This document shows, one piece after another, positions 22,577 through 24,766 of a stretch of DNA of 64,000 bases. Source of the DNA: Methylobacterium sp. AMS5 (lineage in GTDB: Bacteria > Pseudomonadota > Alphaproteobacteria > Rhizobiales > Beijerinckiaceae). The translations under genes and the position numbers were made by a program. How positions within the stretch are numbered: position 1 is the first letter of the stretch; every line of letters begins with the position of its first letter. Location of the stretch: assembly GCF_001542815.1 (NCBI RefSeq), contig NZ_CP006992.1:4469501-4533500 (forward strand), given 5' to 3'. The notes under the pieces are model-generated. The model searched no databases and had not been told where the DNA came from. It saw only the letters and a program-made list of their open reading frames with translations.

Positions 22577-23830
22577 ATGCTCGAACTTCTGCGGCGGCTG
22601 TGGGAGGTCGAAAACCTTTCGCCCCACGGCATCTGTCTGCTTTGGCGCCCGGAGCTGATCTGGACGCATGTCATTTCCGACAGCCTGATCGCCTTCGCCT
22701 ACTTCTCGATCCCCGTCGGACTGGCCTATTTCGTGTCCCGCCGCCGCGACGTGGTGTTCGGGTGGATATTCTGGTCGTTCGCGGTGTTCATCACCGCCTG
22801 CGGCGCGACGCATCTCATGGCGATCTGGACGCTCTGGGTGCCGGATTACGGACTGGAAGCGGCGGTCAAGCTCATCACCGGCATGGCCTCCATCGGCACG
22901 GCGGTGGCGCTCTGGGTCCTGATGCCGAAGGCGCTGACCTTGCCGTCTCCGACTCAGCTCCGGCAGGCCAACGAGGCGCTGCAGGCCCGCATCGCTGAGC
23001 GCGACGCGGCGCTGGCCGCCCTGGAAGCCGCCAATGCCGAGCGCGCGCGTGCCGAGGAAGCACTGCGCCAGAGCCAGAAGATGGAGGCGATCGGGCAGCT
23101 CACCGGCGGCGTGGCCCACGACTTCAACAACCTGCTCAACGTGGTGCTGCTCAACCTCGACCGGGTCGAGCGCGGCCTGCCCGAGGCGAGCCCCCTGCGC
23201 ACGCGCCTGCGCGATGCGGTGAAGGGCGCCGAGCGGGCAGCGACGATGACGCACAAGCTGCTGGCCTTCGCCCGCCGCCAGCCGCTCTCCCCGGTCAGCA
23301 CCGACGTCAACGCCCAGATCGCCTCCTTCGCCGAGTTCCTGGGCGGAACGATCGGCTCGCGCATCCGGCTGGAGACCGATCTTGCCCCGAACCTGCCGCG
23401 GGTAAGGATCGATCCGAACCAGTTCGAGAACGCGATCCTCAACCTCGCGGTCAACGCCCGCGATGCGATGCCGGAGGGCGGCACGCTGACCCTCGTCACC
23501 CGACCGCTGCCCGAAGGCGACGGGATCGCCGTCGAAGTGTCCGACACCGGAACCGGGATGCCGCCGGAGGTCGAGGGGCGGGCCTTCGAGCCGTTCTTCA
23601 CCACGAAGCCGTTGGGGCAGGGGACCGGCCTGGGTCTGAGCCAGGTCTTCGGCTTCGCGCAGCAATCGGGCGGCAGCGCCGCTTTCGTGCGCGGCCATAG
23701 GCCCGGCACGACGGTGCGCCTGTCCTTCCCGGCGCAGGCGCCCGCCGTGAGCCGTCCGGTGGTGCGGCCGGCCCCGGTTGCCGAGCCGAGCGTTGCGCCG
23801 CTGCTGCCACCGGTGGCAGTCGCGGGCTAA
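22577..23830 (+). CDS. Sensor histidine kinase with ETR1-like ethylene-binding membrane domain
   Basis: A 417-residue kinase. Residues ~28-115 form three membrane helices aligning without gaps, at an offset of +10, to the ethylene receptor ETR1 as I know it: Asp35, Tyr42, Ile45, Pro46, Ile72, Cys75 and His79 correspond to ETR1 Asp25, Tyr32, Ile35, Pro36, Ile62, Cys65 and His69. Cys65/His69 are the copper(I) ligands. The core signatures are ISDSLIAFAYFSIP and CGATHLMAIWT. A coiled coil (~130-175) leads to the H-box QLTGGVAHDFNNLL, N-box NLAVNARDAMPEGG, and GTGLGLSQVFG. No GAF or receiver domain is present. A response regulator follows. ATG 22577 is preferred over TTG 22574. Confidence 0.9.
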   Translation: MLELLRRLWEVENLSPHGICLLWRPELIWTHVISDSLIAFAYFSIPVGLAYFVSRRRDVVFGWIFWSFAVFITACGATHLMAIWTLWVPDYGLEAAVKLITGMASIGTAVALWVLMPKALTLPSPTQLRQANEALQARIAERDAALAALEAANAERARAEEALRQSQKMEAIGQLTGGVAHDFNNLLNVVLLNLDRVERGLPEASPLRTRLRDAVKGAERAATMTHKLLAFARRQPLSPVSTDVNAQIASFAEFLGGTIGSRIRLETDLAPNLPRVRIDPNQFENAILNLAVNARDAMPEGGTLTLVTRPLPEGDGIAVEVSDTGTGMPPEVEGRAFEPFFTTKPLGQGTGLGLSQVFGFAQQSGGSAAFVRGHRPGTTVRLSFPAQAPAVSRPVVRPAPVAEPSVAPLLPPVAVAG

Positions 23831-23831
23831 T

Positions 23832-23990
23832 GCATCGTCCCGAAAGGTGGCCTCCGGCTTTCGGAAAAAAGACGATGCAAAAACAAAAGCGAAGAGCATC
23901 GTCCCGAAGGGTGGCCGCCGGCTTTCGGAAAAAGACGATGCAAAAACAAGAGCGAAGAGCATCGTCCCGAAAGGTGGCCGCCGGCTTTCG
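23832..23990. repeat. Three tandem copies of the GCATCGTCC palindrome
   Basis: Copies begin at 23832, 23896 and 23959 (period 63-64 bp). Each reads GCATCGTCCCGAA(A/G)GGTGGC, then CCGGCTTTCGG. Copies 1 and 2 close with GACGATGC; copy 3 lacks that arm. Spacers are nearly identical A-rich runs (AAAAACAA(A/G)AGCGAAGA). Arms CCGAAAG/CTTTCGG and GCATCGTC/GACGATGC would fold. The array starts at the kinase stop codon and separates it from the response-regulator gene. Confidence 0.85.
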
Positions 23991-24093
23991 GGCGGAGGTG
24001 GTGCGGGCGGGCCCGCACTCGAAATATCCTGCGGCTCTTGCGCCTTCCGGGGTTGGGCCTGTCGAATAACAAGAAGACGAAGGAGGGGGGCGT

Positions 24094-24456
24094 ATGGCCG
24101 ACAAGCGGACGGTGCTCGTCGTCGAGGACGAAGAGATGCTGCTCAACGCCGTGACCATGGAGTTCGAGGATGCCGGCTTCGCCGTGCTCAGCGCCGGCAC
24201 CGCGGAGGAGGCCTACGGCCTGCTCCAGGGGGCCGGGCGGGTCGATCTCCTGTTCACCGATATCCGCCTGCCGGGCCAGCTCGACGGCTGGGACCTCGCC
24301 GAGCGCGCCCGCGTGCTGCACCCGGCCCTCCCGGTGATCTACGTGACCGGCTACAGTGCCGAGCAACCCCGGCAGGTGAGCGAGAGCGTGCTGGTGATGA
24401 AGCCCTACCGCATGACGGCGATCATGAGCGCCGCGCAGCAATTGGGCGTGGAGTGA
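24094..24456 (+). CDS. Single-domain response regulator, partner of the upstream kinase
   Basis: A 120-residue receiver domain with no output domain. It has the acidic pocket (VVEDEEM, residues 9-15), phosphoacceptor Asp56 in LLFTDIRLPG, Thr85 in YVTGYS and Lys103 in VMKPYR. It is probably phosphorylated by the ethylene-receptor-like kinase encoded 263 bp upstream on the same strand, and would act by protein-protein contact like CheY or DivK rather than by DNA binding. A GGAGGGGGGCGT ribosome site precedes the ATG. Confidence 0.9.
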   Translation: MADKRTVLVVEDEEMLLNAVTMEFEDAGFAVLSAGTAEEAYGLLQGAGRVDLLFTDIRLPGQLDGWDLAERARVLHPALPVIYVTGYSAEQPRQVSESVLVMKPYRMTAIMSAAQQLGVE

Positions 24457-24469
24457 AGCTGGCCGCGGA

Positions 24470-24766
24470 TCACGACAGGGGACGGCGTGCCGTATGTCGG
24501 AAGCGGCGCACGACGATGTCTCGGTCCGTAGCGCGATAGTCGATCAGGTAGGGAAACGAGCTGAGCGGAAATCGCCGAATGCCCCGCTTACTTGTCAAAC
24601 GCCCTGCCTGGGGATGCGCTTGCAAGAGGGCCACGACCGATAGGATGCGCTCTTGCAGCCTGAAGGCGGCTTGGGGCGACTCGCTTGCGAGAAAATCAAG
24701 TGCCGCTTCGATTTGCCGAGCGGCGGTAAGAGTGTAGCGGACCCTCACCGACCATACTTCGCCCAT
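24470..24766 (-). CDS. RelE/ParE-family toxin
   Basis: A 98-residue RelE/ParE fold protein: VRYTLTAARQIEAALDFLAS, the ERILSVVALLQAHPQAGR helix, and the C-terminal strands FPYLIDYRATDRDIVVRRFRHTAR typical of ParE toxins. ParE members poison gyrase and RelE members cleave mRNA; sequence alone favours the ParE branch. Its start overlaps the end of the antitoxin gene by 22 bases, giving translational coupling, as in classical antitoxin-first modules. Confidence 0.85.
   Translation of the reverse strand: MGEVWSVRVRYTLTAARQIEAALDFLASESPQAAFRLQERILSVVALLQAHPQAGRLTSKRGIRRFPLSSFPYLIDYRATDRDIVVRRFRHTARRPLS

Follow-up and report, generated by a model that had tools for sequence, protein, structure and literature searches.

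Ethylene receptors outside plants are described as little studied in one account (PMC11819568), which also reports ethylene binding by AzoEtr1 of Azospirillum brasilense, both in yeast and in cells, as well as altered biofilm formation and root colonisation upon disruption of AzoEtr1. SynEtr1 (slr1212) of Synechocystis likewise places an ethylene-binding domain ahead of a histidine kinase and signals via a response regulator (PMC11819568 and PMC6682694); according to these accounts it is bifunctional, responding to light as well as ethylene, and its regulator, slr1213, enhances transcription. It is compared here by description only.

Within the window (the whole stretch of 64,000 nucleotides of Methylobacterium sp. 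AMS5 DNA that was analysed), we observed a sensor histidine kinase, P0001, followed on the same strand by a single-domain response regulator, P0002 (Table 1). We regard it as highly probable that the two constitute a two-component ethylene receptor. The arrangement recalls that of AzoEtr1 and AzoRRetr1, where a single-domain receiver also lies immediately downstream of the kinase: the ETR1_N domains of AzoEtr1 and P0001 align gaplessly over residues 16-145 at 60% identity, D35, C75, H79 and K98 bear the same residue numbers in both (PMC11819568), and both lack a GAF domain. In contrast, AzoEtr1, whose sequence was taken from the Azospirillum brasilense Sp7 plasmid record, has a PAS domain that P0001 does not, its kinase core is more distant (30% identity), and its gene slightly overlaps that of its receiver, whereas 263 nt lie between the P0001 and P0002 genes. 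The AzoRR receiver and P0002 are only weakly alike (34% over 82 aa), so the outputs may differ, a point against the reading. Plant ETR1 has all seven binding residues in common with P0001 and is 37% identical to it across the domain; unlike ETR1, P0001 has no GAF domain, no fused receiver and a helix 2-3 loop that is three residues shorter. As no GAF domain follows the membrane domain, P0001 was not filed in the plant ethylene receptor subfamily. Among the best 25 NCBIfam matches of each protein, the P0001 core (residues 155-392) finds its best model in the hybrid kinase PRK13557 and P0002 in the receiver part of PRK13557, with CckA and CpdR models coming next. Our locus differs from the hybrids of the CckA and PRK13557 types in having kinase and receiver encoded separately and an ETR1_N sensor, and the NCBIfam cut-off is reached by none of those 25 matches for either protein.

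Table 1. Features of the P0001/P0002 locus, with coordinates given as positions of the window
Feature	Coordinates	Strand	Basis or composition
Sensor histidine kinase P0001, 417 aa	22577..23830	+	ETR1_N - coiled coil - HisKA - HATPase_c
PHGIC, residues 16-20, PHGxC motif immediately ahead of helix 1	22622..22636	+	Outside the Pfam model
ETR1_N membrane domain, residues 26-122	22652..22942	+	Pfam PF25487, models
Asp35 (ETR1 D25)	22679..22681	+	Sequence comparison
Cys75 (ETR1 C65), expected Cu(I) ligand	22799..22801	+	Comparison; PMC11819568
His79 (ETR1 H69), expected Cu(I) ligand	22811..22813	+	Comparison; PMC11819568
Lys98 (ETR1 K91, AzoEtr1 K98), output residue	22868..22870	+	Comparison; PMC11819568
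Long helix, residues 125-200, in which a coiled coil continues as the dimerisation helix carrying His181	22949..23176	+	Model
His181, phospho-accepting histidine (VAHDFNN)	23117..23119	+	HisKA match; invariant in 44/44 aligned
HATPase_c ATP-binding domain, residues 279-387	23411..23737	+	Pfam, 64 bits, over cut-off
Three tandem palindromic repeat copies, 63-64 nt apart	23832..23996	+	Between the kinase and receiver genes
Single-domain response regulator P0002, 120 aa, Asp56 acceptor, YVTGY, Lys103	24094..24456	+	Pfam

The coordinates and reading frames first proposed for the kinase and the receiver were borne out, P0001 starting at an ATG with a possible alternative TTG one codon upstream. Its membrane domain matches the Pfam profile PF25487 (ETR1_N) over the full length of the profile, with 131.9 bits against a cut-off of 27 (E 1.1e-38); the genome holds one copy of this domain, and the profile found none in the 14 control genomes. 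With this score far above the cut-off, the HMM search gave the opposite of the outcome that the original prediction had named as telling against it, namely a domain nearer to some other family of sensors that lacks the Cys/His pair. Pfam returned no GAF or PAS match in P0001, in line with the predicted lack of a GAF domain, and the predicted coiled coil before the kinase corresponds to the long modelled helix running into it. The description of a full HisKA kinase was slightly generous: P0001 has its H, N, G1 and G2 boxes, but the HisKA match, at 25.5 bits, falls slightly below the Pfam cut-off of 26.9, and a score just below the cut-off counts against the reading of a two-component ethylene receptor. 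Residues H181, N293, D323/G325/G327 and G349/G351/G353 of the H, N and G boxes are invariant across all 44 sequences of an alignment made of P0001 and 43 of the 120 homologues listed, the best of 1065 relatives matched in a protein search with residues 1-130. CckA is the nearest solved structure to the kinase core, both by sequence and by fold, and the best 50 of 504 rows of the fold search are all described as histidine kinases, complexes of such kinases or hybrids related to them, with no ethylene receptor named among these 50.

P0001 has the full set of seven residues required to bind ethylene (D35, Y42, I45, P46, I72, C75 and H79), and they do correspond, at the constant +10 offset that had been claimed for them, to ETR1 D25, Y32, I35, P36, I62, C65 and H69. 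The core strings AYFSIP and CGATHL, said to be nearly those of ETR1, are likewise found in the kinase. The supposed gapless fit to ETR1 extends through helix 2, but in helix 3 the register changes by three residues: at +10 the identities to the ETR1 sequence number 15/27 for residues 30-56, 12/32 for residues 57-88 and 1/32 for residues 89-120, and the +7 register gives 8/32 for the last stretch, hence the shorter loop between helices 2 and 3. PMC11819568 also pairs ETR1 K91 with AzoEtr1 K98. The seven residues and K98 are kept in all 42 canonical copies of the genus, along with an HGxC motif; all eight fall among the 32 of 97 domain positions that are invariant in the 44 aligned homologues (K98 in 44/44), and the seven are exact in every one of the 120 homologues listed, the best of the 1065. 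The ETR1_N match, the complete set of seven and the 60% identity to AzoEtr1, which has been shown to bind ethylene, uphold the reading of this domain as one of the ethylene-receptor type.

Across the genus, 45 of 111 genomes match ETR1_N, 44 of them over the cut-off, and the canonical gene is present in 42 and missing from 69. One weak match, in G095 (24.5 bits, under the cut-off), was missed by phmmer and stands in neither the canonical nor the degenerate count. Five Methylobacterium copies are degenerate, namely those of G030 and G032 and the second copies in G048, G050 and G051 (loci L019, L020, L024, L026 and L028); L020 has kept the Cys and His and lost Asp35 and Pro46, and a matching receiver still adjoins it. 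Even draws from wider groups, which overlap in some genomes, gave ETR1_N matches in 64/397 genomes of the order (55 over the cut-off), 28/385 of the class (28) and 29/398 of the phylum (28), with 0/14 controls in each. Hybrid kinases at four loci (L163 and L164, L262 and L263; two Bradyrhizobium and two same-order genomes) carry the set D-F-T-A-(A/V)-C-R, with His79 replaced by Arg, and this class is predicted from its residues to comprise natural forms without the usual ethylene binding. Among the matches listed in the protein search, a relative in M. extorquens is 97% identical over residues 1-130 and named only 'ATP-binding protein', and one in Methylorubrum aminovorans is 98% identical over the same residues and named 'SasA'; the suggestion of a leaf-dwelling methylotroph fits these two named species of Methylorubrum. 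A scan of named genomes, from which the source genome was possibly excluded and in which most of the at least 80 loci share the kinase core alone, gave among the matches listed Methylorubrum podarium at 89% (residues 1-417), Methylobacterium oxalidis at 72% and then Bradyrhizobium at 44-53%. These relatives place the window in the Methylorubrum clade within Methylobacterium.

Shorter receptor frames were also noticed, of 345 and 274 aa stop to stop at L021 and L039 and of 327 and 243 aa for P0009 and P0021, and the receptor gene may be truncated in some lineages. Given that the canonical gene is missing from 69 of the 111 genomes and its frame is shortened in some species, the gene is dispensable, which likewise counts against the reading. 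It undergoes 6 changes on a tree built from rpoB-rpoC, which covers 109 genomes (the other two of the 111 are without the marker, and a few have partial genes). Distances among the kinases mirror those on the species tree (Mantel r 0.91, 0/999 permutations as high, 40 genomes), although only 18 of 37 splits are common to both trees. These observations fit mostly vertical inheritance with losses, on a tree that does not separate gain from loss. ACC deaminase (TIGR01274 over the cut-off) occurs in 71 of the 111 genomes; with canonical receptors only, and acdS only above the NCBIfam cut-off, 13 genomes have both genes, 29 the receptor without acdS, 58 acdS without the receptor and 11 neither (Fisher p 3.4e-8). 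On the rpoB-rpoC tree, where acdS has 10 changes, this reduces to 6 independent pairs with a median sign-test p of 1 (range 0.25-1), too few pairs to show an effect, and we read the opposition of receptor and deaminase as a clade effect and discount it as a sign of a trade-off. The source genome itself has only a weaker ACC deaminase homologue (236 bits against a cut-off of 392).

P0001 carries the PHGxC motif where plant ETR1 has an N-terminal Cys pair. Within the genus, HGxC is found in all 42 canonical copies and in none of the five degenerate ones. We further assembled a wide set of 85 loci, consisting of the best-scoring ones from the order, class and phylum draws and 11 chosen named ones, with three own-genus loci dropped (including the degenerate G032) and some genomes contributing two loci; 84 of these gave a profile match, and all seven residues are exact in 61 of the 84 domains. 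Here a domain counts as 'canonical' if no more than one of the seven residues differs, both Cys and His are retained and position 35 is Asp or Glu; on this definition HGxC occurs in 67/70 canonical versus 3/14 non-canonical domains (Fisher p 6e-9, phylogeny ignored), L309 being scored as non-canonical solely because its aligned stretch starts late. L303, L304 and L288 go against this association, being canonical yet without PHGxC, and so do the His-to-Arg domains, of which three out of four retain it. The motif reads PHGHC in three cyanobacterial plasmid copies; a Deinococcus copy of the domain has no PHGxC motif. A literature search matching four PHGxC strings gave, among the papers listed, nothing on ethylene receptors, as judged by titles and abstract openings. 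The position of the motif's His and Cys on the outer side suggests a possible part in copper handling or in a disulfide.

An AlphaFold2 model of the kinase (44 sequences, mean pLDDT 81.4, pTM 0.49) places the helices of the ETR1_N domain at residues 25-55, 59-87 and 91-120, alongside which lie three hydropathy peaks, and ends helix 3 with a four-residue break at residues 121-124 that includes Pro123; confidence is lower about residues 161-180 (block pLDDT 62-66). A second model, of the domain alone, has the same helices and the same break, and a single unbroken helix from helix 3 to the kinase was rejected because the models break there. The spacing from the binding site to the phospho-accepting His is constant within the subfamily of P0001 only. 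K98 and H181 are 83 residues apart in 44/44 aligned homologues and 41/42 genus copies (81 in the remaining copy), and H79 precedes the H-box His by 102 residues in 117 of the 118 homologues, out of the 120 listed, in which the motif was found, the other having 88, or 14 less. In the wide set, canonical forms below 130 show spacings of 88 (four), 97 (two), 104 (two) and 122 (one), and non-canonical forms 90 (one), 101 (four, the His-to-Arg class) and 111 (one); with the spacings varying in this way, a universal heptad rule for the linker was rejected. We tentatively advance, as an idea more doubtful than not, that PHGxC (His17, Cys20) might be a second conserved element of bacterial receptors, absent from plant ETR1, kept with the canonical copper site and mostly lost on decay, which might load or gate Cu(I) or form a dimer disulfide. 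Equally tentatively, in the compact receptors of methylotrophs the fixed His79-His181 spacing, interrupted solely by the brief gap that separates helix 3 from a single long helix, might provide the simplest known route from site to kinase. If true, the long-open question of how ethylene binding reaches the kinase would become directly testable, and ethylene would be a signal to leaf methylotrophs.

The stand-alone receiver expected after the kinase is indeed a separate gene, its product matching PF00072 (Response_reg) with 55.8 bits. Residues E11, D12, D56, Y83, T85, G86 and K103 are invariant in 42/42 receiver rows (41 from canonical genomes and the partner of the degenerate G032 kinase), and the motif takes the form Y-[V/A]-T-G-[Y/F], with Y in 22 and F in 20 rows at position 87 and a first letter Y, unlike the F of FATGUY. 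The YVTGY of P0002 is close to this FATGUY motif of CckA Rec, CpdR, MrrA and SdrG; MrrA, SdrG and CckA Rec hand phosphate on, according to PMC9981736 and PMC5964349. We infer for P0002 a role as relay or hub rather than in DNA binding.

A same-strand downstream receiver of the same family is present in 41 of the 42 canonical genomes; in the remaining one, G072, the contig stops 235 nt past a short kinase frame. Kinase and receiver were both found in each of the 29 canonical loci with sufficient flank (one of them, L042, without upstream sequence), where the two upstream neighbours recur in 10/29 and the downstream acyl-CoA ligase in 7/29. That the linkage is kept while the neighbours change is the best evidence that the pair works together. 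Fused ETR1_N-kinase-receiver proteins also exist (P0121 and the Bradyrhizobium forms), and this linkage and these fusions point to phosphotransfer from kinase to receiver. The 263 nt and the three repeats between the genes weigh against the reading, co-transcription being putative. The repeats occupy much of the gap and are not part of the two-component system; their 33-nt core has 124 matches in the genome at up to 3 mismatches, with 0 for a reversed-pattern control, and looks like a dispersed REP-like element. The small frame at 24470-24766 (-), which looks like a ParE/RelE-type toxin, has no counterpart in any of the 29 related loci compared. We rejected identity of P0002 with CstR (Mext_1965), a single-domain receiver recently studied in Methylobacterium extorquens that has a 381-nt gene, about 126 aa and 10 Asp according to PMC13344952. 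The rejection draws on size, aspartate content and a single primer: P0002 is 120 aa long with 7 Asp, and allowing 1 mismatch, the published CstR reverse primer finds no site in its vicinity. Two 1-mismatch sites for this primer elsewhere in the genome have no good second-primer match and no receiver frame nearby, and the primers thus did not locate CstR itself.

The same copper site could serve another ligand or cue (copper, CO, another alkene or light, as in SynEtr1), with ethylene not being the natural signal. That SynEtr1 responds to both light and ethylene (PMC11819568) lends this some substance, as do the degenerate-site relatives that persist (G030, G032, G048b, G050b, G051b and the Bradyrhizobium His-to-Arg class) and imply that the fold can persist without the ethylene site. 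We nevertheless hold it to be unlikely, for the seven residues, including the non-ligand Tyr42, Ile45, Pro46 and Ile72, are invariant in 42/42 canonical genus copies, and AzoEtr1, at 60% identity, binds ethylene (PMC11819568). The occurrence of degenerate copies in the genus might be taken to mean that P0001 is merely an orphan kinase of the usual CckA type, whose ethylene domain has decayed, no longer binds and survives by chance; as the copy in P0001 is canonical, the domain is conserved across the depth of the genus and the gene tree follows the species tree, we consider this very improbable.

A further possibility, which we rate as the most credible of these alternatives though still doubtful, and which is compatible with an ethylene receptor, concerns the output: the kinase might signal mainly elsewhere, to an HPt protein or into the general stress response, with P0002 acting as a phosphate sink or serving several kinases. 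P0002 has a FATGUY-like motif and no output domain, for MrrA and SdrG an exchange of phosphate with a number of kinases has been reported (PMC5964349 and PMC9981736), and the genome has 45 receiver matches, P0002 included, making cross-talk possible; set against this are the linkage of the pair in 29/29 loci despite changing neighbours and the existence of fused forms.

Returning to P0001/P0002 as a two-component ethylene receptor, we observed directly the sequence with its domains, the conservation of the residues and the linkage between the two genes; ethylene and copper binding, the sign of the response, phosphotransfer and the target we infer. We posit that in helix 2 of a dimeric kinase Cys75 and His79 would hold Cu(I) between them, and that ethylene would bind there and alter the packing of helices 1-3, with the involvement of Asp35 and Lys98. 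The change would cross the break at 121-124 into the long helix with His181 and thereby set the balance of kinase and phosphatase activities; by analogy with ETR1, SynEtr1 and the AzoEtr1 prediction, ethylene would probably lower kinase activity. His181 would phosphorylate Asp56 of the adjacent P0002. Since P0002 lacks any output domain and shares its build with relay receivers of the CckA/MrrA/CpdR class, it would in turn act as a phosphate relay, a hub or a protein-binding switch.

Thus, P0001 is a canonical, compact member of the known bacterial ethylene-receptor family with a dedicated single-domain partner, and its kind is already known; what is worth following is the group of bacteria that carries it, its compact build and the association of PHGxC with a canonical site. 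Our search of the literature by titles and abstract openings found, among the papers listed, no Methylobacterium ethylene receptor. The genetics of Methylobacterium and Methylorubrum are easy. The two form a major leaf-dwelling group (PMC8561711). With this compact relative of the plant receptor, a methanol-eating, probably leaf-associated bacterium may sense the plant hormone ethylene. The single-copy P0001, being without PAS or GAF and smaller than ETR1 or AzoEtr1, would make the control of a kinase by a gas at a membrane copper site addressable, and would allow one to ask whether leaf bacteria listen to the ethylene of their hosts.
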